Shown: one piece after another, positions 3,298 to 20,397 of the stretch | How the letters are laid out: the number at the start of each line of letters is the position of its first letter | How positions within the stretch are numbered: the first letter of the stretch is position 1 | Virus record (IMG/VR): IMGVR_UViG_3300009059_000079 | Location: 1 to 20,397 of that record | DNA from: a virus | Length of the DNA stretch: 20,397 bases | Reading direction: 5' to 3' (one strand) | Made by a program: the position numbers and the translations under genes | Notes under the pieces: model-generated | Database searches by the model: none | Told to the model about the DNA's origin: nothing | Seen by the model: only the letters and a program-made list of their open reading frames with translations

Positions 3298-4101
3298 ATG
3301 GAAAATTTAGATATTTCAGTAATATTACCAGTAGAGTCATCTAAACATTTGGACTTTGCAGAATACTTTGACAAAGCAATTTTGTCTATACAAAACCAAG
3401 TTATTGGTATTAATGAATTGGTTATCGTTCACTCAGGTGAAGAGTCATTATCAAATTACATTTCAAACTACAATTTTAGTGGTTTGACTGTAAATATTTA
3501 CCATAATGAAGGTAAAACTGATTTTGGTAGTCAGGTTAACTATGGAGTTTCAAAGGCAAAATCTAAATGGATTTCAATCTTAGAATTTGATGATGAGTAT
3601 GCATCTATTTGGTTTAAAAATGTAAAAGTATATATGGATGCATATCCTGAAGTTGATGGTTTTCTACCGATTGTAGTTGACGTTGACGGTAAGGGTGTAT
3701 TTGCAGGGTTTACTAACGAAGCAACATTTGCGGCTAGCATGAATACTGAAATTGGTATTCTAAGTAACGATATGTTGTTAAGTTATCAAAACTTCCAAAC
3801 ATCAGGTATAGTTCTAAAAAAAGAAACTTATGAGGATTTTGGGGGATTTAAACCATCGTTTAAACTTACATTTATTTATGAATTCTTATTAAGATTAACA
3901 TATAACTCGGCGACATTAATGACTATTCCTAAAATTGGTTACAAGCATATCAATTTACGTGAAGGTTCAATTTTCTGGGGTTACAAAAATGGTACACACA
4001 GAATTACGGATGACGAAGTTCGTTTTTGGATTGATTCAGCTAAAAAAGAACATTTCTTCACTGAAGATAGAGGCATAAAATATGAACCAGTCGATGCTTA
4101 A
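3298..4101 (+). CDS. Glycosyltransferase family 2-like protein
   Basis: 267 residues with a GT-A fold signature. The N-terminus ISVILPVE and a LSIQNQ segment, then ELVIVHSGEES, match the first strands of GT2 enzymes; NYGVSKAKSKWISILEFDDEY (residues ~81-101) contains the acidic DxD-like pair (EFDDE) that normally holds the metal and nucleotide sugar. The segment FQTSGIVLKKETYEDFGGF around 165-182 fits the acceptor side. No transmembrane segments. It starts one base after the GT-B gene and its stop overlaps the sigma factor start (TAATG), so it is cotranscribed with both. Acceptor and donor are not evident. Confidence 0.82.
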   Translation: MENLDISVILPVESSKHLDFAEYFDKAILSIQNQVIGINELVIVHSGEESLSNYISNYNFSGLTVNIYHNEGKTDFGSQVNYGVSKAKSKWISILEFDDEYASIWFKNVKVYMDAYPEVDGFLPIVVDVDGKGVFAGFTNEATFAASMNTEIGILSNDMLLSYQNFQTSGIVLKKETYEDFGGFKPSFKLTFIYEFLLRLTYNSATLMTIPKIGYKHINLREGSIFWGYKNGTHRITDDEVRFWIDSAKKEHFFTEDRGIKYEPVDA

Positions 4102-4856
4102 TGTTAGTAACCGAATTGTCGGGTTCCTCACAAACTCTAACTGAATCGAGAAAGAGGGGTAGAAAACCTACAAATACCAATTATTTTGACGTAAGAGAGG
4201 AGACGGCAGTTAGGATGTTTTTAACTGCCACAACCTATAATGAACGTAATGATATCTATAATGAATTTTTACGTGCACCGTTAGATAAGATGATTGAATC
4301 AATCATAAGACGGTACAAACTATATAGAAAAGATATGGATTTTATTGAAATCCATAATGATACTCATTCTTTTTTAGTTACAAAAATAGAAAAGTTCAAA
4401 CCAGATAAAAACAAAAAGGCATACTCCTATTTTGGTACTATCTGTAAAAACTATTTAATGGGTCAAATTATTAAAGACCAAAAAGAAACAAATAGAAAAA
4501 TATCATATGAAGACATTTCACTTTCTTTAGAAAATAGACCTGACATGATTTATCACATTGATGGTACTACTATTGAACCTATCGATGTTATTGAAAAATT
4601 CATTAAGGAATTAAAAGATTTTTTAATGGACCCTAATATGAGTGAGAATGAACAAAGATTGGGTAATGCACTTGTCGAACTATTTGAAAATTACGAAAAT
4701 ATTTTTATTGGGAATGATAATAATAAATTTAATAAGAATATTATTTTACTTTCACTAAGAGAAATGACAAATCTGTCAACAAAAGAAATTAGAACATCAA
4801 TGAAAAAATTTAAAAAACTTTATTTTGATTTGATGAAAAGACTAAATGAATTATAA
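4101..4856 (+). CDS. gp55: Late-transcription sigma factor, T4 gp55-like
   Basis: 251 residues. A conserved N-terminal patch (RKRGRKPTNTNYFDVREE, 17-34) precedes a sigma region 2-like core: RNDIYNEFLRAPLDKMIESIIRR (49-71) and KKAYSYFGTICKNYLMGQIIKDQK (105-128), the latter resembling region 2.2/2.3 with its aromatic and basic residues. The C-terminus (IILLSLREMTNLSTKEIRTSM, 214-234) looks like a helix-turn-helix similar to sigma region 4. T4 gp55 is about 185 residues and lacks a full region 4, so this protein is longer. Family knowledge: gp55 directs host RNA polymerase to phage late promoters. Its place at the border between the sugar module and virion genes, and the recurring AT box before virion genes, fit this role. 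Start chosen by the TAATG overlap with the upstream gene. Confidence 0.8.
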   Translation: MLVTELSGSSQTLTESRKRGRKPTNTNYFDVREETAVRMFLTATTYNERNDIYNEFLRAPLDKMIESIIRRYKLYRKDMDFIEIHNDTHSFLVTKIEKFKPDKNKKAYSYFGTICKNYLMGQIIKDQKETNRKISYEDISLSLENRPDMIYHIDGTTIEPIDVIEKFIKELKDFLMDPNMSENEQRLGNALVELFENYENIFIGNDNNKFNKNIILLSLREMTNLSTKEIRTSMKKFKKLYFDLMKRLNEL

Positions 4857-4870
4857 AAACTTAGTTGAAA

Positions 4871-4879
4871 TATTTATAG
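4871..4879 (+). promoter_or_regulatory. Candidate late promoter box TATTTATAG
   Basis: TATTTATAG lies in the 27-base gap before the gene at 4884, beginning 13 bases before its ATG. The same box recurs before six other genes. If transcription starts at the distance used in T4 late promoters, the RNA would be leaderless or nearly so. Inferred from position and recurrence only. Confidence 0.5.
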
Positions 4880-4883
4880 TATT

Positions 4884-5261
4884 ATGGCAAGACCTAAAAA
4901 GAAAGATATTATACTCAGTAAAGATTCTGTTTTGAGTCTAATGCAAGAAATCTACAATGAACTTGTAGAACAAAGAACGACTGCGGTTAGAATTCAAAAT
5001 AGATTAATTAGTATGATGAAAGACCCTAAGGATACTGTTGCCATTTCAAACATGTTGAAGGAACAACAAAAAATTATTAATGATACAATTGAAAAGAAAT
5101 TGTCTCTTTCAAAACTACAATCAACAATTTGGGAAAAATCTCAGAATTCAGGTAATGATGAAGCATTTGACCTTTCTGAAATGGACGAAGATGTATTAAA
5201 GGCATTAATCGATAAAGATATTGATAATTCGTCTGGTGGGGGTTATAAACTTAATAAGTAA
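4884..5261 (+). CDS. Small coiled-coil phage protein, possibly terminase small subunit
   Basis: 125 residues. A basic start (ARPKKKD) is followed by a long helical stretch from about residue 12 to 90 with heptad-like spacing (MQEIYNELVEQ, NMLKEQQKIINDTIEKKLSLSKLQ) and an acidic tail (DLSEMDEDVLKALIDKD) ending in a Gly-rich stretch. This architecture resembles T4 gp16-type small terminase subunits, which oligomerise through a central coiled coil, but I do not see decisive identity. The first gene after the sigma factor, with its own promoter-like box upstream; it starts the run of virion genes. A structural or chaperone role is equally possible. Confidence 0.6.
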   Translation: MARPKKKDIILSKDSVLSLMQEIYNELVEQRTTAVRIQNRLISMMKDPKDTVAISNMLKEQQKIINDTIEKKLSLSKLQSTIWEKSQNSGNDEAFDLSEMDEDVLKALIDKDIDNSSGGGYKLNK

Positions 5262-9080: not shown

Positions 9081-9089
9081 TATTTATAG
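9081..9089 (+). promoter_or_regulatory. Candidate late promoter box TATTTATAG
   Basis: Identical nonamer to the one before the gene at 4884, in the 22-base gap before the gene at 9102 and beginning 21 bases before its ATG. Supported by recurrence only. Confidence 0.5.
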
Positions 9090-9101
9090 TAAAATACTCA
9101 G

Positions 9102-10607
9102 ATGTCTACAGTAAAATCGTATTTTAGTAAAAACGATACATTAATTTATAATTCTTTTACCAATACAGGTAGAAATCCTGTTATTGAATTATTTTACGGT
9201 AGAGTGGATAATATTATTCCACCTCCAGGTTTTAGCCGTTTAATCTTTGATATTAACTTAGACCTTTTACAAGAACAAGTCGCAGATGGAACCATTTCAA
9301 CGGGATGTTCTCGTTCAATGACTCACGTTCTTAAGATGACAAATACTTCACAGTTTGATGAAGCATTGTTAAATGGGTATTGGTCCGATGGAAGAAGAAG
9401 AGCAACATCATTTGATTTAATTCTATTTAGAATACCAAAGGTTTCGGGCTCAACAGGTAATCTACAAACATGGGACGAAGGTGTTGGTTATGATTACTAT
9501 AACTCTGCAGTTCCTCTTAATTCGTCAAATGCTCAAAGTGTTACTGAACAATTATTAACAGATAAAACATTCTCAACACGTCCTGTAAACTGGTACCAAA
9601 GAACAACAATTGACAATTGGTCCACACCAGGTTTATACAATAACACAAATTCACTTACATCTTTAACAGGTCTTAACTATTCTGCATTAACCATTGTTGA
9701 TGTCCAACATTTTGAATTTGGCAATGAAGATATTGAATTTGATATGACAAATGAAATAAACAATATCTTAACAGGTGCAACTACAGGTCACACAGGTTGG
9801 GGTGTTGCGTTTGTTCCTCAGGTTGAAAACTTAACAGGACTAACAGAAAATTATGCTGTCGGTTTCTTTTCAAGACATACTCAAACATTCTATGAGCCTT
9901 ATTTAGAAACTACTTACGATGACTTAATTACTGATGATAGAAATAACTTCATTGAGGGTCAGACTAATAAGTTGTATTTGTACACCTACGTTAACGGTAA
10001 CCCAATTAAATTGGACACCCCACCCGTAGTTACAATCTATGACCAAAATGATGATATTGTTCAATCAGGTATAACTTCTTGTATGATTACAAGGGGGGTT
10101 TATGAGATTAGTGTAAGTGGTATTACTGCAACTACAATACCTTGTATGTTTTATGATGTTTGGTCAGGTTTATCTTATAACGGTATATCAATTGCCAATG
10201 TTGAAAATGAATTTGTTTTAAAAAGTAATTCTAACTATTTCCAAATTGGAACAAGTACACAAACACCTAAGATATACGCATTTAATTTCTTTGGGATAAG
10301 ACAAAATGAAAAGATAATCAACACGGATATTAGAAAAGTGACTTGTATTATTAGACAAGCATATTCTTCTAATGTTGTTTTAAATACTGTAGATGCATAT
10401 TACAGAGTCTACGTTAGGGAAGGACAGACAGAAGTTGAGGTTCAGGGTTGGACTCCAATTAACAGAACACCTGATAGTTTTTATTTTGTATTTGATACAA
10501 GAGATAAAATTCCAAACGAATACTTCATTGACATGAAAGTAGTGACTGACTTAAATGTTGATATTTATAAACAGACATTACAATTCCAAATCGTAAATAG
10601 AAAGTAA
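9102..10607 (+). CDS. Putative tail fibre/adhesin structural protein with DNRLRE-like domain
   Basis: 501 residues, Asn/Thr/Tyr-rich and beta-type, as in phage fibres. Residues ~1-265 resemble a DNRLRE-type beta module: an IYNSFTNTGRNPV start, a FEFGNEDIEFDMTNEINNIL segment, and a terminal FYEPYLETTYDD which matches the family's closing strand. Residues ~270-370 (LYLYTYVNGNPIKLDTPPVV...) look like an Ig-like or bacterial surface beta-sandwich; the C-terminal part (from ~375) contains another beta domain ending in LQFQIVNRK. No signal peptide. DNRLRE modules are known from bacterial cell-surface proteins, so a phage version could bind host polysaccharide; here function is inferred. It follows the gp5-like gene with its own promoter-like box and ends two bases before the next ATG. 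Confidence 0.65.
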   Translation: MSTVKSYFSKNDTLIYNSFTNTGRNPVIELFYGRVDNIIPPPGFSRLIFDINLDLLQEQVADGTISTGCSRSMTHVLKMTNTSQFDEALLNGYWSDGRRRATSFDLILFRIPKVSGSTGNLQTWDEGVGYDYYNSAVPLNSSNAQSVTEQLLTDKTFSTRPVNWYQRTTIDNWSTPGLYNNTNSLTSLTGLNYSALTIVDVQHFEFGNEDIEFDMTNEINNILTGATTGHTGWGVAFVPQVENLTGLTENYAVGFFSRHTQTFYEPYLETTYDDLITDDRNNFIEGQTNKLYLYTYVNGNPIKLDTPPVVTIYDQNDDIVQSGITSCMITRGVYEISVSGITATTIPCMFYDVWSGLSYNGISIANVENEFVLKSNSNYFQIGTSTQTPKIYAFNFFGIRQNEKIINTDIRKVTCIIRQAYSSNVVLNTVDAYYRVYVREGQTEVEVQGWTPINRTPDSFYFVFDTRDKIPNEYFIDMKVVTDLNVDIYKQTLQFQIVNRK

Positions 10608-11103: not shown

Positions 11104-11111
11104 TATTTATT
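11104..11111 (+). promoter_or_regulatory. Candidate late promoter box TATTTATT
   Basis: TATTTATT lies in the 35-base gap before the gene at 11115, beginning 11 bases before the ATG. Same box as before 4884, 9102 and 18072. The spacing would give a leaderless transcript if T4 late-promoter geometry applies. Confidence 0.4.
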
Positions 11112-11114
11112 TGA

Positions 11115-11309
11115 ATGTCTTACCAAACTTACACCCTAACTAAGGATGATGAACTCATTCTTGAAACTCAAGCAGCAACTGTAGACCGTGCAATTGATTA
11201 CTTTGCAATCGATTATCCGCAAATCTTTTCAGTAAGTAGTGGTTATACAATTGGATTGAAACAAAAGGATAAATACCCATCGTTTCAAAAAGAAAAAAGG
11301 GACAATTAA
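11115..11309 (+). CDS. Small hypothetical protein
   Basis: 64 residues, not recognised. An N-terminal beta-like part (YQTYTLTKDDELILETQAAT) and a short helix are followed by an IFSVSSGYTIGLKQKDKYPS stretch. Preceded by a promoter-like box, and its TAA stop lies in the loop of a terminator hairpin, so it is probably the last gene of the plus-strand late unit. An antisense frame here has no start signal and was ignored. Confidence 0.6.
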   Translation: MSYQTYTLTKDDELILETQAATVDRAIDYFAIDYPQIFSVSSGYTIGLKQKDKYPSFQKEKRDN

Positions 11310-13121: not shown

Positions 13122-14933
13122 TTATCTCAATTCTCTTAAGTCGAATGTTCTAACACCATCAACTGTTACCTTACCGTAGAATCTGTTGTTAACCATCTTC
13201 TTAGCGTATCTTGTCATGATACCCTTGATAGGAGTGAAGTTGAATGGGTTGTACATAGTTGGAGTCAACTGAAGAGGTACATATGGTGCGTAAACGTAAC
13301 CTGTATCTAACAAAGAGTTACCTTTGTGTCCCAACAATACTGTGTTTGGTGGGAAGTATGGGTCACGATATACTTGATATCTACCTGCTAATGTACCGAT
13401 TCTTTCGATACCCATGTTGTACTGGTCCTGCTCAGGAGCTGCGTTTGAAACGTGGAAGTACTCCAAGTCATCAAAAATTGCACTGATTTCAGAAGATACA
13501 ACAATCCAGTTTGCTCCACCTCTTAAAGTAGACTTGTGAATTTGAGCTGAAATTTGGTTGATTGCAGTAATCAACGTTTGGTTCCAGTCTTTCTGAGTGT
13601 ACTGAGTTAATGGAGTAGCTGTTGTTCCTCTCTTCCAACCGTTGTAGTCCCATCTTAATGTCCAAGCCGCACCTTTTCTAAGGTCTCTCAAGATTTCTCT
13701 GTCGATTTCAGCTGCCACTTGCTCTGACAATAAAGCTGTTAATTCAGCTTCAGCGTCGATGTTGTGGAATGCTGATACGTCTTGTGCCATTTCAGGTGAC
13801 CATTGAGCTCTTAACTTTCTTTCTGTAACAGAAACAGTTACTGCTTCAAGGTCAAAAGAAACTTCACCAATTCTATCTTCGAATTCCATTTCTTTGTAAA
13901 TTCTGTAAGTTGTGGTGAACTGTGAACTTGGTGCCACTGAACCGTTAGCCAATGTTGTGTAACCTGAGTAACCGTCAAACGAACCTGCTCCGATAGAACA
14001 AGGAACTTGGAAGTCAGCCTCAAGGTAAATTTTACCGTCAGCGTCACAAATGTTGTCATAAGAACCACCGTTAGCCGTGTTCGAAGAACCGAATGCTGGT
14101 GATGATGTTCCACCGTACTCAACGATACCTTTACCGTATTTCTGTGTTACAACTCTGAACAACAAGTTACCTGTAACTGCTGACCATGGAGATGTACCTG
14201 GAGTTGATGTAATAGTCAAATCAGAAAGGAATGTTTCTGTGTCGACTGTGTTACCATCAGGACCCATTAACTTACCGTATGAACCTGCGTTAGAGAAACC
14301 TGACATAACAAGTAATACTTTTCTGTATTCACCTGCTGTGTAACCAGATGCTACTAATGAATCACCTACCCATACTACAGTTACGTTTGGTGCAGTTACA
14401 GAAGAGAACTGACCTTTAGAGTAATCGAATAATCCTGGTGGGTCAAGAGCTGGTTCGTTACCTTCGTAGAATCTATCGTAAAGGTCTTTACCGTTGTCTG
14501 CTCCATAACCTTGGTTAGGGTTGTTCTGACCTGAATCAACTGCTTCAGGTGAACCGATTGGTGCGTAGTGTTGTGTGCCGCCAGCGCCACCAACATACTG
14601 TTGAATTTTAGGTACGAAGTAGAACAATTTACCGATAGGTAAGTTCATTGCTTGTACTGATACGATATCGTTAGCCAATAATTTAGAGAATACTCTTCTA
14701 ACGATAGGGAAAACAACCGTCTCAAATGAACCTGTGTCAGATGTAGATGATGCTTCGTTGATTAGGTAAGAAGCTTGGTTTTCGTAAAGTTGAGCCACAT
14801 TTTCTCTCATGTGACCTTTCAAACCTTCCAAGAAACCTAACTTATCCCATTTGTTGATTGTGTCTTCTTTGATAACTTTCAAGTGCTTAAGACCGATGTT
14901 ACCAACAAGACCTGATTCTAATAATGCTCCCAT
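13122..14933 (-). CDS. gp23: Major capsid protein, T4 gp23-like precursor
   Basis: 603 residues. After a ~60-residue helical propeptide come the gp23 hallmark VVFPIVRRVFSKLLANDI (73-90) followed by VQAMNLPIGKLFYFVPK (92-108), and later FEDRIGEVSFDLEAVTVSV and ERKLRAQWSPEMAQDV (about 350-385), then AEAELTALLSEQVAAEIDRE (~393-412). The C-terminus YAPYVPLQLTPTMYNPFNF and MTRYAKKMVNNRFYG is also typical. Residues YLINE-ASSTSD fit the T4 prohead protease rule (I/L-x-E, cut after E), predicting cleavage after Glu60; T4 gp23 is cut after Glu65. The mature protein would be 543 residues and form the hexons. A Gly/Ser/Thr-rich insertion (about 110-350) presumably includes a surface-exposed domain. By eye it has more G+C and a more uniform codon choice than neighbours, as expected for a very highly expressed gene. 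Follows gp22 with a 34-base A-rich leader. Confidence 0.95.
   Translation of the reverse strand: MGALLESGLVGNIGLKHLKVIKEDTINKWDKLGFLEGLKGHMRENVAQLYENQASYLINEASSTSDTGSFETVVFPIVRRVFSKLLANDIVSVQAMNLPIGKLFYFVPKIQQYVGGAGGTQHYAPIGSPEAVDSGQNNPNQGYGADNGKDLYDRFYEGNEPALDPPGLFDYSKGQFSSVTAPNVTVVWVGDSLVASGYTAGEYRKVLLVMSGFSNAGSYGKLMGPDGNTVDTETFLSDLTITSTPGTSPWSAVTGNLLFRVVTQKYGKGIVEYGGTSSPAFGSSNTANGGSYDNICDADGKIYLEADFQVPCSIGAGSFDGYSGYTTLANGSVAPSSQFTTTYRIYKEMEFEDRIGEVSFDLEAVTVSVTERKLRAQWSPEMAQDVSAFHNIDAEAELTALLSEQVAAEIDREILRDLRKGAAWTLRWDYNGWKRGTTATPLTQYTQKDWNQTLITAINQISAQIHKSTLRGGANWIVVSSEISAIFDDLEYFHVSNAAPEQDQYNMGIERIGTLAGRYQVYRDPYFPPNTVLLGHKGNSLLDTGYVYAPYVPLQLTPTMYNPFNFTPIKGIMTRYAKKMVNNRFYGKVTVDGVRTFDLRELR
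14754..14756 (-). other. Predicted prohead protease cleavage position in the capsid protein
   Basis: Codon of Glu60 in the context L-I-N-E followed by A-S-S. The T4 gp21 protease cuts after Glu in I/L-x-E; the site is at nearly the same distance from the N-terminus as the T4 site (65) and lies just before the conserved capsid core. Prediction from sequence only. Confidence 0.6.
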
Positions 14934-14967: not shown

Positions 14968-16428
14968 TTATTTTTGTAATTTACTCATTAAATCTTTCAT
15001 TCTTAAGAACTGAGGATTTTCATAAGTTTTTGACTCAATAAGATTTGTAGAAGCTCCTCTTGATGGAGTCTTAGCAACTTTAGCCTCAACTGATTCAGAA
15101 ATAGTTGAGGTTTCTTTGCTTTGATATTCTTCTTTCAAAGTCTTATAAAGAGTCTTTGATTCTTTTAAAGATTCAACAGTGTCAAATCTTCTCAAAATGT
15201 TAATTTTTTCTTGTTTTGTTGTTGTGTGCTCAGTGAACAATCTCGTTGCGTAAGCTAAGTTTGAATTGAAAACAGCTACTTCATTTAATTTTTCTCTGAA
15301 AATATTTAATGCTTTTCTGTATTCTTCATTCTTTGCTCTCAAAGATTCTACTTCTTTAGCCATCTCACTCTCAGATACAGTTCTTACCTTTTGTTTTGGT
15401 AAACCGTGTCTTCTTGGGTCGTTCTTAGAACCATTACCCAAAGTACGAGCAGCTTCAGTTGTTTCAGCTTCTTCTTCCTCCGACATTTCAAATGACTTCT
15501 TTTTCAAGTTCATACCAACACCCTTAGGTTTAATAGTCATTGAACCTTCTTTCATTTCACCGTCTTCCATTTCAGAATCTTCCATTTCAGATAGGTCAAA
15601 TGATTTTTTCTTAAGGTTCATTCCCATACCTTTTGGTTTAATAGTCATTGACTCCTCAACCTCACCTTCGAATGCTTTTGTTTTTTTATTCATACCTTTT
15701 TTTGTTGTGTAATCTTCATCACCTTTATGGGTTTTTGATTTTTCACCCTTTTTCCCGTAGTCACCTTCACTCATTTCTTCGTACTCTTCATCAGAAGATT
15801 CATCTTCATAATCTTCCGTTTCATCTTCGTCTTCAGAAATTTCGATTTCGTAAACTACATCGTCTTCTTCGTACATCTCGTCCATTGTTTCTTCATAGTC
15901 TTCACCTTCTGTGTGAATTTCATATTCAACATCAGAATTAGTATCCTTAAGATGAATTGAATCTTCATCTTTAGAAACAATAATACCATCTTCTTCGCCC
16001 ATGGCTTTGAAGACTTTTAAGATTTCATCATCAGACGCAGTTCTAAGGTCTAAAGGTAATAGAACTTCTTCTTCGTCATCTACTTCTAATTCATCACCAG
16101 GTAGGTCCAAAGACATAAGGTCTTCTTCACCTCCTAATGTTTCATCAGAAAATTCATCGTCAGATTCTTCATCATCAGATTCTTCATCGTCCATTTCAAG
16201 TTCAGCTTGTTCTTCCATTTCGTGAGCGTGCTCACCTTCTTCCATTTCTGATACTTCTTTCATAGACTCCGCTTTTTCAACCTCTTCAAGAGATTCCTTT
16301 ACTAGTTCACTGATTTCTTCCTTCATAGTAGAAGCAAGTATTCCTTTTGCATTTTGAGTTACGGCTTCTTCCAAATTTTTCATTTGTAAAAGTGCCTCTT
16401 CAACTAAAGATTTTTTTTCGTTTTGCAT
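14968..16428 (-). CDS. gp22: Prohead core scaffold protein, T4 gp22-like
   Basis: 486 residues; recognised by position (between the gp21 protease and gp23) and composition rather than strong identity. Residues 1-60 are helical; 60-220 are extremely acidic (runs of D/E with S, Y, M); 230-320 hold basic repeats; 350-486 are a helical, less acidic region (MAKEVESLRAKNEEYRKALN, 356-375, then VFNSNLAYATRLFTE, 386-400) that resembles the conserved C-terminal core region of gp22-type scaffolds. T4 gp22 is 269 residues, so this one is nearly twice as long, mostly because of the acidic segment and repeats. Family knowledge: the scaffold fills the prohead and is degraded by gp21 to allow DNA packaging. 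Several I/L-x-E sites are present. The leader carries a TATTTATT box and ends with ACTAAA directly before the ATG. Confidence 0.78.
   Translation of the reverse strand: MQNEKKSLVEEALLQMKNLEEAVTQNAKGILASTMKEEISELVKESLEEVEKAESMKEVSEMEEGEHAHEMEEQAELEMDDEESDDEESDDEFSDETLGGEEDLMSLDLPGDELEVDDEEEVLLPLDLRTASDDEILKVFKAMGEEDGIIVSKDEDSIHLKDTNSDVEYEIHTEGEDYEETMDEMYEEDDVVYEIEISEDEDETEDYEDESSDEEYEEMSEGDYGKKGEKSKTHKGDEDYTTKKGMNKKTKAFEGEVEESMTIKPKGMGMNLKKKSFDLSEMEDSEMEDGEMKEGSMTIKPKGVGMNLKKKSFEMSEEEEAETTEAARTLGNGSKNDPRRHGLPKQKVRTVSESEMAKEVESLRAKNEEYRKALNIFREKLNEVAVFNSNLAYATRLFTEHTTTKQEKINILRRFDTVESLKESKTLYKTLKEEYQSKETSTISESVEAKVAKTPSRGASTNLIESKTYENPQFLRMKDLMSKLQK
15478..15651 (-). repeat. Tandem protein repeats within the scaffold gene
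   Basis: Residues 260-281 and 296-317 are near-identical (SMTIKPKG, M or V, GMNLKKKSF, then a DLSE or EMSE end), 36 residues apart; a third, degenerate copy lies at about 242-256 (TKKGMNKKTKAFEGE). Basic blocks alternate with acidic Met/Glu/Asp linkers. Pattern of recent internal duplication. Confidence 0.8.
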
Positions 16429-16461: not shown

Positions 16462-16469
16462 AATAAATA
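16462..16469 (-). promoter_or_regulatory. Candidate late promoter box TATTTATT before the scaffold gene
   Basis: Minus-strand TATTTATT beginning 41 bases before the gp22 ATG and just downstream of the terminator that ends the preceding unit, so a new transcript for gp22 and gp23 can start here, with a leader of roughly 28 bases. Confidence 0.5.
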
Positions 16470-16787: not shown

Positions 16788-17498
16788 TTAATAACCTAAA
16801 TAATCGGAAAGTCTTCTCATTAAGTCAACAGACTTATCGTTTTTTGTAATGTTTTCAGGTGATTTTTTTTCTTCCTCTAAGTTTTCTTCGTATTTGTTTT
16901 TGTCTTCTTTATTTAAAAACAAATAAGCTCCTGGCGTGGATGGTGAAGATACTAAGTCAAAACAAATTAATTCAAAATCATCTTGAACTTCATTTTGTTC
17001 TCCTTTCTTAGCTAAAGAACCAATACCTCTTGACGATACTCCCATAGTAACCCCTTGTCTCATTAAGTTAGCTGCAACATCACCAGGTGATGAAACTATA
17101 CCTCTTTCATGGAAACCTGGTGTAGTTAATAATTTAATCTTACCCATAAGGACATTACCCTCCCACCATACATCAGTAATAAGGTGAGATACTCTTTCCA
17201 AATCAATTAGTGAAGATTCAGGGTGATTTAACTCAGATATAGAAAGACCTTTGTTAATTGCTTTCTTATATTTTTCAACTTCTCTCTTTAATATCCTCTC
17301 AGGATAAACTCTACCATTTCTATTTGGTACACCATATTTCTGAAGTGTAGCGTAAAATTCAAAAGGTTTTGAGTGTTCTAACTGACCATAAGATTCTCTT
17401 ATTACTTCAGCGTTTCTGAATTCGTTAGGTGATACTGTTCCCGCATCCCACTCAACCAATATACCATTTCCTAAATCGTTTGGACCTAATACTCTCAT
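16788..17498 (-). CDS. gp21: Prohead core protease, T4 gp21-like
   Basis: 236 residues, serine protease of the T4 prohead maturation type. The N-terminal part carries the substrate strand (YATLQKYGVPNRNGRVYPER, 49-68). Probable catalytic residues: His92 in ELNHPES (89-95), Ser155 or Ser156 in MGVSSRGIG (152-160), and Asp181 in FDLVSSPSTPGA (180-191). Length is near T4 gp21 (212 residues); the extra C-terminal ~40 residues are charged (KEDKNKYEENLEEEKKSPEN) and contain Glu-rich segments that may be removed by self-cleavage. Family knowledge: it cuts scaffold and capsid precursors after Glu in I/L-x-E inside the prohead. Its place next to portal, scaffold and capsid genes is the T4 order. A TATTTATT box lies 21 bases before the ATG. 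Confidence 0.93.
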   Translation of the reverse strand: MRVLGPNDLGNGILVEWDAGTVSPNEFRNAEVIRESYGQLEHSKPFEFYATLQKYGVPNRNGRVYPERILKREVEKYKKAINKGLSISELNHPESSLIDLERVSHLITDVWWEGNVLMGKIKLLTTPGFHERGIVSSPGDVAANLMRQGVTMGVSSRGIGSLAKKGEQNEVQDDFELICFDLVSSPSTPGAYLFLNKEDKNKYEENLEEEKKSPENITKNDKSVDLMRRLSDYLGY

Positions 17499-17511: not shown

Positions 17512-17519
17512 AATAAATA
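17512..17519 (-). promoter_or_regulatory. Candidate late promoter box TATTTATT before the protease gene
   Basis: Minus-strand TATTTATT beginning 21 bases before the gp21 ATG, in the 31-base gap after the gene at 17530. Same spacing as before 9102 and 18295-19026. Confidence 0.5.
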
Positions 17520-17529
17520 CTATGGAATA

Positions 17530-17967
17530 TCAAATGTTTTTTGATTTTGATTTTGATAGTTGAAAATATTCCGACCTTAAAAGTTCATCTTGATAAACAG
17601 ACTTAGCAATTTTTTTAATTTTTTCTTTTAAAATTTGTGATTTGAATTCAAGAGAATCTTTTAGAAATAGTGTGATTTCTAAACTCATAAAACTTTTTTT
17701 ATTTAGTTGTATCCCACTTGAGCGTAGGTCCAAATCAACAATAGAGTTTTTTTCAAACACATCTTGGTCAATAACCTCTAACAAATTATGTTTAATTTGT
17801 CTATTTAAATTTCCCGTTACTCTATCCCAATTTTCTACTTCCTTTATTGGTTCAACCCAAGATTGTATGTTTATGTAAAGTGATTTAAAATTTATTGAAT
17901 CTACAGTTCCGTACACACATTTCGCATTATCAAAAATTGATAATTTCGATGTTTTTCCTTTTTTCAT
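17530..17967 (-). CDS. Hypothetical protein in the head gene cluster
   Basis: 145 residues, not recognised. Basic at both ends (MKKGKTSKLS; SKSKSKNI). The middle has beta-like strands (KCVYGTVDSINFKSLYINIQ, SIVDLDLRSSGIQLNKKSF, MSLEITLFLKD) and ends with an amphipathic helix (KSQILKEKIKKIAKSVYQDE). It could be a small head or packaging component since it lies between the portal and protease genes, the place of T4 genes 67 and 68. Preceded by a perfect TTGACA/TATAAT promoter, unlike all its neighbours, which have the TATTTAT box. Confidence 0.6.
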   Translation of the reverse strand: MKKGKTSKLSIFDNAKCVYGTVDSINFKSLYINIQSWVEPIKEVENWDRVTGNLNRQIKHNLLEVIDQDVFEKNSIVDLDLRSSGIQLNKKSFMSLEITLFLKDSLEFKSQILKEKIKKIAKSVYQDELLRSEYFQLSKSKSKNI

Positions 17968-18003: not shown

Positions 18004-18032
18004 ATTATAATCAAAAAAAAAGTATTTGTCAA
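18004..18032 (-). promoter_or_regulatory. Perfect sigma70-type promoter TTGACA-17-TATAAT
   Basis: On the minus strand TTGACA (18032-18027), exactly 17 bases, then TATAAT (18009-18004). The predicted start near 17997 gives a ~30-base leader for the gene at 17967. This is the host-type vegetative consensus of most bacteria (not the Bacteroidota TAnnTTTG form), distinct from the late boxes. Confidence 0.65.
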
Positions 18033-18052: not shown

Positions 18053-18060
18053 TATTTATT
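18053..18060 (+). promoter_or_regulatory. Candidate late promoter box TATTTATT before bS21
   Basis: TATTTATT beginning 19 bases before the bS21 ATG. It lies 20 bases from the -35 of the minus-strand sigma70-type promoter, so the two units diverge from this 100-base gap. Confidence 0.5.
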
Positions 18061-18071
18061 AAGATAGTATT

Positions 18072-18266
18072 ATGATAGTAATAGAAGTACAAAAAGGTGA
18101 AAGTATCGAAAAAGCGTTAAAACGATACAAGTACAAGGTCATTAAGACCAAACAGATTGATATGTTACGTGAAAGACAGGAATTTGTCAAAAAATCGGTA
18201 ACAAAAAGAATGAAGAAACAAAAAGCCAAATACAAACAATATCTTCAACACATAGACACAAAATAA
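18072..18266 (+). CDS. rpsU: Ribosomal protein bS21 homologue
   Basis: 64 residues, the normal bS21 length. The pattern MIVIEVQKGESIEKALKRYK, then a K(V)IKTK segment, LRERQEFVKKSV and KRMKKQKAKYKQYLQ follows bS21 closely: 'V..GEsiekALkRyKrk', '.L..R..f.KpS..r' and a basic tail. bS21 sits on the 30S platform near the 3' end of 16S rRNA and helps in initiation; in Bacteroidota it is one of the proteins that hold the anti-Shine-Dalgarno tail. Phage bS21 copies are known in several marine and large phages. It has its own promoter-like box and a terminator directly after its stop, and is the only plus-strand gene inside the minus-strand head cluster, so it is expressed independently. No Shine-Dalgarno sequence is visible before it. 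Confidence 0.93.
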   Translation: MIVIEVQKGESIEKALKRYKYKVIKTKQIDMLRERQEFVKKSVTKRMKKQKAKYKQYLQHIDTK

Positions 18267-18292
18267 AAAAGTCCGAATAAATCGGACTTTTT
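18266..18292. terminator. Bidirectional terminator after bS21
   Basis: An 11-bp stem (AAAAAGTCCGA with TCGGACTTTTT) and the loop ATAAA; the plus side ends in TTTTTCTTT and the minus side in a T run. It begins in the last base of the bS21 stop codon and ends two bases before the stop of the minus-strand gene at 18295, so it serves both convergent genes. Confidence 0.92.
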
Positions 18293-18294
18293 CT

Positions 18295-19026
18295 TTATAA
18301 CCCTTGTTCTAATTGTTTAAGTTTATATAACGAAATCAAATCAGATTCACTTTCTTGTATTTTTTGAATTGTATTACCAATCTTTTCTTTTAACTCAGAA
18401 TCATCTGACTCAGCAATTTTATCTGACAATTTTAATATAACGTTTTCTTTGACTAATTTAATTTCTTCTGAAATTTGTTTTTTATTCAAGGACAATAAAG
18501 ATTTTAATTCTTTTTTATCTTCTTCAGAAATATTTGAATATTCTTTATTGAATGTATTTGTAACAATTTTTAACATAGATGAAAGTGGAATGTTCACACT
18601 TTCTTGAATGTTTTCTTTTTTTGTTGAAAGTAAAAGACTTTTAATTTGTGTTTTTGTCTCTAATATTCTTTCAAGATTTGTAATCTTATTTTCGTAAACC
18701 ACAAAATCAATGTTGGAATATTCATTTTCAACATCACCTTCTAAATTTGTTTTTACCCACTTATATAGTTCATCAATTTTTTTCTGATTAGAAGAAATTA
18801 AATCAGATAATCTTTCGAACGATTCATTAACGTATTCACCTGCAATATCTTTGTTGATACCTTTTTGCGCTGATAAATCATTATATATAAAGTACATCTC
18901 AGAGATGGCTTTGTCGGATAAGAAGTTCTTTTTGAACTCTTTTATAACGGTTTTGAAATTTTCTTTACCGTATGATTGAACGATTAGATGGTCTAAATTT
19001 GATTTAAATTGTCCGAACTTATTCAT
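18295..19026 (-). CDS. Helical hypothetical protein, possible prohead core component
   Basis: 243 residues, almost entirely helix-forming and rich in Lys, Glu, Ser, Asn and Ile/Leu, with heptad-like stretches (KITNLERILETKTQIKSLLL, then KKELKSLLSLNKKQISEEIK and a C-terminal KEKIGNTIQKIQESESDL). No family recognised. It follows the portal gene by 20 bases, in the place of T4 genes 67/68, which encode prohead core proteins, so a core or scaffold-like role is a reasonable inference. A TATTTATT box lies in the gap before its ATG. Confidence 0.62.
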   Translation of the reverse strand: MNKFGQFKSNLDHLIVQSYGKENFKTVIKEFKKNFLSDKAISEMYFIYNDLSAQKGINKDIAGEYVNESFERLSDLISSNQKKIDELYKWVKTNLEGDVENEYSNIDFVVYENKITNLERILETKTQIKSLLLSTKKENIQESVNIPLSSMLKIVTNTFNKEYSNISEEDKKELKSLLSLNKKQISEEIKLVKENVILKLSDKIAESDDSELKEKIGNTIQKIQESESDLISLYKLKQLEQGL

Positions 19027-19038
19027 AATAATTTTATT

Positions 19039-19046
19039 AATAAATA
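19039..19046 (-). promoter_or_regulatory. Candidate late promoter box TATTTATT after the portal gene
   Basis: Minus-strand TATTTATT directly abutting the portal stop codon (19049-19047) and beginning 20 bases before the ATG of the gene at 19026. Its spacing matches the boxes before 9102, 17498 and 18072. Confidence 0.5.
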
Positions 19047-20397
19047 TTACTTATTCAGTAACTCATTAAGTTTATCTTCAATTTCACCCAAAGATTTTCT
19101 TCCTTTGGACAAATCAAGTATATCTTGACCTCTCAAAATGTCATCCTCAATCAAAAGATTCATATCTCTATCTTTGATTGATTCGGGTGTAACTTCAGCA
19201 TCACCACCACCTGGTGCTGGTGCCTCAGGCGTTTCAGGAATTTCAGGAGCTCCCGTTTCTAAAGATGCTGGTTCACCAAATCCACCTAAATCACCAATAG
19301 CAGGTTCTGTTGTTTCACCTGCGGGTTCTTCACCCGGAGCTGGTTGTGTTCCTTTATTACCGTATAACTTATCCAAGTTATCAAATATACCTGTCTTAGT
19401 TATTACTTGAGGTGTTTGTTCAAGTTCAGCGGCTACTGCCTTTTCAATTCTTTGTTGTTGAATATCAAGTTTAATTTCTTCATCTGAAAAACCAAGAATA
19501 TGTTTTTTAGCCCATGAAGATGAAACTGCCTGTATACCATTACCAGGGTCACCAACAGCATCTTTGTAAAGAAGAATTTTTTCTTTCCAAGTTTCTAATT
19601 TTAACAAATCAGCTTGTGATGACGGGTTTGTTAATCCTAAAACAAAATTGTTTAGCTCATCTTCAAATCCAAGAATGTATAAGTGAATAATTGCAATCTT
19701 ATTCATTTCTTGAATCATCGACTTTTGAATTCTGTTAATAGTTCTTGCAAAACGAATATCTTGCAATGATAAATTTTTACCATCACCTACAACATCTTCA
19801 AAACCTAAAAATGCTTTAGGAACACGAAGTGCTGTTAACAATTTCTTTTGAATGTATTCAATGTCCGCAATCTCGGATAAATTTTGAGCTCCAGGTAAAG
19901 TGTCAATTGGGTTTGGCGCATTTGGGTCACGAACAGGAATAAAAAAGTCTTGGTCTACTGCCATTTGATTAAATCTCAAATCAACATTACCTGTTTGTGG
20001 GTCTGAAATTTGGTCCCTTTTAAACTTATTGGCAACTCTTTGTACATATGGTTCAACGTCTTTGTCATCCATATTACCAACAAACACTTTGAACACACGT
20101 CTTTCAGGTGCTCTTGAAGTTCTGTATACTAACATCGCATCTTCTGACAAAATTAACTGTTTCCAAATACGACGGGCTTTTTCTAACATTGAGGTACCGT
20201 AAGGTAACTTTCTATCATCACCCAATAATCTAAAGTGAGCTATTTCCCATGTGTTAAATTCTAAACCTTTTTCATTCCAAATAAATTTCAACGCTTCTGC
20301 AGTGGCATCTGTTTGATATTTACCTGCAGAAATTTTCATTCCTCTTTCAATCCTTTCAAGTTGAATGTTTGGTAATTGTTGGGAACCCATGATTCCC
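19047..20397 (-). CDS. gp20: Portal vertex protein, T4 gp20-like, 5'-truncated
   Basis: 449 codons visible; an ATG at 20390 exists but the frame stays open to the window edge and the family is longer (T4 gp20 is 524 residues), so the true start probably lies outside. Conserved portal segments, numbered from that ATG: RAPERRVFKVFVGNMDDKD (93-111), the dodecamer clip region; DFFIPVRDPNAPNPIDTLPG (148-167), AQNLSEIADIEYIQKKL (168-184) and ALRVPKAFLGFED (187-199), all gp20 hallmarks; then FARTINRIQKSMIQEM. The last ~120 residues are unusual: a Pro/Glu/Gly-rich linker (about 335-400) and an acidic helical tail (DILDLSKGRKSLGEIEDKLN). Family knowledge: the portal nucleates the prohead and is the DNA entry channel. 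Confidence 0.93.
   Translation of the reverse strand, partial: GIMGSQQLPNIQLERIERGMKISAGKYQTDATAEALKFIWNEKGLEFNTWEIAHFRLLGDDRKLPYGTSMLEKARRIWKQLILSEDAMLVYRTSRAPERRVFKVFVGNMDDKDVEPYVQRVANKFKRDQISDPQTGNVDLRFNQMAVDQDFFIPVRDPNAPNPIDTLPGAQNLSEIADIEYIQKKLLTALRVPKAFLGFEDVVGDGKNLSLQDIRFARTINRIQKSMIQEMNKIAIIHLYILGFEDELNNFVLGLTNPSSQADLLKLETWKEKILLYKDAVGDPGNGIQAVSSSWAKKHILGFSDEEIKLDIQQQRIEKAVAAELEQTPQVITKTGIFDNLDKLYGNKGTQPAPGEEPAGETTEPAIGDLGGFGEPASLETGAPEIPETPEAPAPGGGDAEVTPESIKDRDMNLLIEDDILRGQDILDLSKGRKSLGEIEDKLNELLNK

Follow-up and report, generated by a model that had tools for sequence, protein, structure and literature searches.

Why does a phage carry its own copy of the ribosomal protein bS21, and why does it place that copy among its head genes but on the opposite strand? 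bS21 is the commonest ribosomal protein among viruses, and its benefit to a phage is unproven. We examined the question in 20,397 nt of the virus record IMGVR_UViG_3300009059_000079 (hereafter the window), a 20-kb fragment with TerL outside it. A preliminary description of this DNA had proposed that bS21, made late together with capsid from its own transcription unit, changes the share of ribosomes that contain bS21 and so redirects translation from host to phage mRNAs. Overall, that interpretation is partly supported.

A bS21 gene among the head genes

The bS21 locus and the genes around it are as follows.

18053-18059, + strand: TATTTAT box of bS21, a probable late promoter, with the bS21 ATG 12 nt downstream
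18072-18266, + strand: bS21 gene, 64 aa, Tyr54 kept (ORF call, Pfam, and PDB alignment)
18265-18293: hairpin of 12 pairs with A/T flanks, a bidirectional terminator between the bS21 and 18295-19026 genes
18295-19026, - strand: 243-aa protein, convergent with bS21 and a conserved neighbour of it, with a TATTTAT box at 19040-19046
19047-20390, - strand: portal (gp20-like), 5' part past the window end
18004-18032, - strand: promoter-like TTGACA-17-TATAAT sequence for the 17530-17967 gene; most relatives have a recognisable copy
17530-17967, - strand: 145-aa conserved protein, divergent from bS21, which it adjoins in 24/24 relatives checked
16788-17498, - strand: prohead protease (gp21-like, PF03420); TATTTAT box at 17513-17519
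14968-16428, - strand: acidic protein at the place of the scaffold gene (gp22), with a TATTTAT box at 16463-16469
13122-14933, - strand: major capsid protein (gp23-like), lacking a TATTTAT box within 60 nt

The 64-aa product matches the Pfam family PF01165 (Ribosomal_S21) over residues 4-57, scoring 46.1 bits where the cut-off is 27 (E=4e-12), and its closest PDB relatives are the Bacteroidota bS21s in 9i5v and 7JIL (F. johnsoniae), at E ~1e-11, which supports its assignment as a Bacteroidota-type bS21. Alignment with 7JIL places a tyrosine at position 54, the residue that stacks on A1534 and turns the tail of 16S rRNA into the platform pocket (McNutt 2023, PMC9976891). Tyr54 was found in all 119 phage loci long enough to read, which represent 56 distinct proteins, and an aromatic residue 54 in phage bS21 is likewise reported by Chen et al. 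2022 (PMC9723584). That the protein is of Bacteroidota type, with the residue for the anti-Shine-Dalgarno (anti-SD) tail kept, is supported. The window protein resembles the rpsU product of F. johnsoniae (PMC9976891, 7JIL) in family, length, Tyr54, and predicted place in the anti-SD pocket; it differs in having KKS for KPS near positions 40-42 and TK for TG at positions 26-27. The phage appears to be a T4-related myovirus with a presumed Bacteroidota host, the observations that bear on the host being the type of bS21, genes that lack a Shine-Dalgarno (SD) sequence, and a gp23 near that of the Flavobacterium phage immuto.

The T4-type head module lies on the - strand in the order portal, 243-aa protein, 145-aa protein, prohead protease, 69-aa protein, acidic protein in the scaffold position, and gp23 major capsid protein, and bS21 is the sole + strand gene within that stretch. 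A scaffold role for the acidic protein is suggested by its position and acidity. Both flanking proteins adjoin bS21 in 24/24 representative loci, and in the same number bS21 lies opposite in strand to, and among, the portal, protease, and capsid genes, as far as the contigs reach. The preliminary description had a complete bS21 gene with its own box and terminator inside the head operon. The gene, box, and hairpin are all present and bS21 does lie among head genes on the opposite strand, but "inside the operon" did not stand: since the 17530-17967 gene has its own promoter-like site, bS21 sits at a junction of - strand units rather than within one, and since bS21 and the - strand gene ending at 18295 are convergent, the terminator is common to both. 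The arms of the hairpin covary in related phages with pairing kept (GTCCGA, GTCCCC, GGTCC, and GGGGTC versions). The hairpin is missing from other phage clades; in several, bS21 is followed by a small gene on the + strand. The TTGACA-TATAAT site (18032-18004, a 12/12 match) was also considered as the bS21 promoter and rejected, as it points away, toward 17530-17967.

The 145-aa protein is possibly the product of the bS21_CN gene of Chen et al. 2022, a putative identity. It has a confident predicted fold (pLDDT 88), and its model found no PDB match at E <0.001; its one viral structural relative is an uncharacterised protein from Myoviridae sp. ctPuP5. A weak profile match to RelE (E 0.5) was not credible.

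Much of this is familiar. Chen et al. 2022 (PMC9723584) describe jumbo myoviruses of Bacteroidetes in which bS21 lies among the TerL, portal, protease, and capsid genes on the other strand, and they propose that the phage protein takes the place of its host counterpart and favours phage mRNAs. The window resembles the myoviruses of their clades a-e in the strand of bS21 relative to portal, prohead protease, and MCP, a GC content of ~32%, PhoH, the aromatic residue 54, closeness to Flavobacteriia bS21, predicted Bacteroidetes hosts, and late transcription, the last known from RNA of the Chen phages. Unlike those genomes, the window covers 20 kb and lacks TerL, the gene whose similarity (~70% or more) ties a phage to these clades, and its membership in them is thus putative. 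Mizuno 2019 (PMC6375957) had already shown a phage bS21 entering E. coli ribosomes and published the takeover idea, and McNutt 2023 (PMC9976891) discusses both sets of findings in light of bS21 autoregulation. The protein of Mizuno 2019, from pelagiphage HTVC008M, is similarly phage-borne in an aquatic T4-type phage; in contrast to the window bS21, it is alphaproteobacterial in origin and host, and it was absent from the tblastn matches to the window bS21 at E 1e-5. The gene kind, the layout, and the takeover idea are therefore largely known, and the observation as first written is a rediscovery. What appears to be new here is a probable late-promoter box, a phage bS21 gene that lacks the rpsU feedback signal, and a clade that groups nearest to SD-less paralogues; the promoter motif, the SD comparison, and the paralogue link are not described in the text of Chen et al. 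2022 (PMC9723584) as available.

A TATTTAT box shared with virion genes

The box upstream of bS21 recurs in the window, where TATTTAT is found in the sense orientation upstream of genes 8 times versus 0.8 in dinucleotide shuffles, and its reverse complement was not found upstream of any window gene. Besides the copies listed above, examples on the + strand include the following.

4871-4877, + strand: TATTTAT box before gene 4884-5261
9081-9087, + strand: TATTTAT box before gene 9102-10607
11104-11110, + strand: TATTTAT box 4 nt before gene 11115-11309

In an unbiased enrichment of upstream 7-mers, TATTTAT ranked first in six of eight related contigs (including the window) and second in the other two, and sense copies exceed antisense copies across the eight. 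It is also the top upstream 7-mer of the cultured Flavobacterium phage immuto (13 versus 1.6 expected), where boxed genes include terminase, portal, tail sheath, and tail completion genes. Boxed genes in another relative encode baseplate wedge, tail tube, tail sheath, head-tail adaptor, and a DnaB-like helicase. The box is present at 116 of the 120 phage bS21 loci, where the base rate among genes is 28.7%; relatives' sequences are not independent and genes in the large contigs were called simply as ORFs, and among distinct upstream sequences the count is 45/49.

The distance from box to ATG peaks at 4-5 nt and at 13-16 nt, and in the 12-17 nt class bases 5-7 after the box are A in 90-98%. No conserved element was found upstream of the box. 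TATTTAT is thus probably a phage late promoter. Transcription of bS21 is predicted to start at about 18064-18066, which would give a leader of 6-8 nt; in many genes the inferred start coincides with or just precedes the ATG, and late mRNAs from this promoter are probably leaderless or carry very short leaders. Because the MCP gene has no box within 60 nt and a DnaB-type helicase gene has one, the box may not be strictly late. We judged it unlikely to be a translation signal, since its distance to the ATG ranges from 0 to ~57 nt and it is missing inside tight gene runs. An origin of the bS21 box in the Bacteroidota -7 element TAnnTTTG was rejected, as other boxed genes do not have TA at the required position. 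A search of the open-licence literature found no prior description of the motif, which, given that scope, is not proof of novelty.

Three further observations concern the distribution of the box. A 521-aa gene with an Fe/Mn superoxide dismutase domain in another phage contig (L097:13857-15422) has a TATTTAT box. A separate group of viral bS21 genes (L226, L227, and L228) has no TATTTAT within 60 nt. Immuto (MW353176), a cultured T4-type relative, has the same box and no annotated bS21 between portal and protease, which makes it a natural comparator.

The box map predicts three separate units: bS21, scaffold with MCP, and protease with the 69-aa gene (16563). RNA mapping in Chen et al. 2022 (PMC9723584) gives units in which capsid is joined to the gene upstream of it and protease to the one downstream, and pairs bS21 with its other-strand neighbour, unlike the box-predicted units. 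The two maps are in line except for that pairing. The same RNA data place bS21 transcription late in relatives, which supports the proposal that bS21 is made at the same time as capsid and is consistent with a TATTTAT box common to virion genes.

A candidate gp55-like sigma factor

T4 late promoters consist of a lone TATA-like box about one helical turn before the start, with no -35 element (PMC2988020). The window also encodes a candidate for the corresponding factor.

4101-4856, + strand: candidate gp55-like late sigma factor (remote profile match)

Its match to the gp55 family by hhalign is remote (94%, E=1.3e-7), and its top PDB match is T4 gp55 (E=0.012). The protein has 79% mean column identity across six relatives, and its gene ends a run that holds PhoH and glycosyltransferase genes. 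Its AlphaFold model is of low confidence (65), and the top PDB matches of the model are mostly sigma factors, none of them significant. The system resembles T4 late promoters (PMC2988020) in a single AT-rich box, no -35 conservation, an AT-rich stretch after the box, and a gp55-like sigma, the start sites here being predicted ones. In contrast, the box is TATTTAT here and TATAAATA in T4, and the box lies so close to the ATG that leaderless mRNAs would result in many cases. The T4-type TATAAATA was tried as the window's late promoter and had no sense match upstream of window genes. TATTTAT is probably read by the phage's own gp55-like sigma.

Shine-Dalgarno sequences and rpsU feedback

The claim that nearly all genes here start without SD sequences was confirmed: anti-SD pairing below -6 kcal/mol occurs before 4.2% of window genes versus 4.6% in shuffles. 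An extended SD before rpsU, used in the autoregulation of bS21, was reported by McNutt 2023 (PMC9976891), and we measured this feedback signal as the computed pairing of the bases upstream of the bS21 start with the 16S tail. For the window bS21 the value is -1.8 kcal/mol, well short of the below -13 that marks autoregulated rpsU. Across the 120 phage bS21 loci the median is -0.8 and the best value -6.2 kcal/mol, with a strong SD in 0/120. In contrast, the rpsU genes of 30 Flavobacteriaceae have a median of -18.7 kcal/mol, with 27/30 below -13; a class-wide rpsU sample is more mixed (8/34 below -13 kcal/mol). The phage gene thus differs from F. johnsoniae rpsU in having no extended SD and hence no autoregulatory signal, and because its message has none, phage bS21 would escape host feedback. 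The absence need not be selected, since SD-lessness is the default of this phage's genes.

Relationships of phage bS21

A scan of a genome collection with the phage protein gave two loci only, and we therefore used family searches. We built a tree from 85 sequences, and in it all 28 proteins from phages fall into a single clade (99/97), distinct from host rpsU. Residues peculiar to this clade are found in the N-terminal half of the protein and near positions 21-28. The clade's nearest neighbours are bS21 paralogues encoded without an SD on Flavobacteriaceae chromosomes, not rpsU (93/90), a placement that uses only 60 columns and is not decisive. Both the phage proteins and the SD-less paralogues tend to have KKS for the KPS of rpsU, and K for the G of TG.

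Many Flavobacteriaceae genomes carry one or two additional chromosomal bS21 genes, and most extra copies examined have no extended SD. The paralogue-bearing groups listed by McNutt 2023 (PMC9976891) do not include Bacteroidota. In one Flavobacteriaceae MAG (L163:1903-2980), an SD-less bS21 paralogue directly follows a gene for a sigma-70-type factor.

Possible roles of phage bS21

The proposal that a changed share of bS21-containing ribosomes would by itself redirect translation from host to phage mRNAs did not fare well. In Flavobacterium, almost every mRNA is SD-less and is best initiated by ribosomes that contain bS21, those that lack bS21 initiate poorly on SD-less mRNAs, and the sole known message favoured by bS21-lacking ribosomes is rpsU (McNutt 2023, PMC9976891). 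The redirection step is weak because host and phage are both SD-less, so that anti-SD pairing gives no difference between them. A top-up of bS21-replete ribosomes fits better than redirection. The explanation that we lean towards is that the phage makes a working Bacteroidota-type bS21 from a late-transcribed, SD-less message and so keeps ribosomes replete, free of host feedback. bS21 would be transcribed late from its own TATTTAT promoter, probably by the gp55-like sigma, as a short SD-less message. The protein would then join host 30S subunits, to which bS21 binds loosely, and would sequester the anti-SD tail as the host protein does. With the extended SD missing, bS21-replete ribosomes would not throttle phage bS21 synthesis, and ribosomes would stay replete while virion mRNAs, SD-less and with short leaders, are made in a late burst; as a side effect, translation of host rpsU would be depressed. 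Two of these steps have precedents in relatives and other phages, namely late transcription (Chen 2022, PMC9723584) and the presence of phage bS21 in E. coli ribosomes (Mizuno 2019, PMC6375957).

A selective ribosome, in which phage bS21 replaces the host protein and its divergent N-terminal helix chooses phage over host messages (as in Chen et al. 2022, PMC9723584), strikes us as rather unlikely. The separateness of the phage clade from rpsU (99/97), its own residues in the N-terminal half and at positions 21-28, and the conserved gene order are what this would lead one to expect, and late phage leaders, probably far shorter than those of the host (mean 33 nt, PMC6847099), could serve as a recognisable feature. 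Against it, besides the promoter box we found no phage-specific sequence close to start codons, and host mRNAs are SD-less to the same degree. Leader length is nevertheless a possible discriminator between host and phage mRNAs, and we tentatively entertain a paired strategy, on balance doubtful, in which a promoter 4-16 nt before starts would yield leaderless or nearly leaderless virion mRNAs while a feedback-free, paralogue-related bS21 remodels ribosomes to favour them.

Phage bS21 could also act as an inhibitor, given that purified E. coli ribosomes with pelagiphage bS21 were only ~5% active in vitro, in a heterologous system (Mizuno 2019, PMC6375957). That the protein weakens or traps ribosomes, and so, late in infection, shuts down translation in the host or a defence response, is nonetheless improbable in our view: the assay put an alphaproteobacterial phage protein into E. 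coli, bS21 is co-timed with capsid genes that themselves need translation, and Tyr54 is invariant. More improbable still is a small basic protein that is packaged in the virion and carried into the next cell, or has some other role outside the ribosome. Its location among head genes would suit packaging, which Chen 2022 (PMC9723584) raises as a possibility, but the conserved fold residues and Tyr54 are best explained by a role in the ribosome.

Under the explanation that we favour, the difference between a host rpsU with an extended SD and a phage bS21 without one would turn the takeover idea into a measurable prediction, namely a feedback-free supply of bS21 and a fall in rpsU translation late in infection. 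Similarly, the short-spaced TATTTAT box predicts leaderless late mRNAs, and the same box in the cultured Flavobacterium phage immuto is open to direct mapping.
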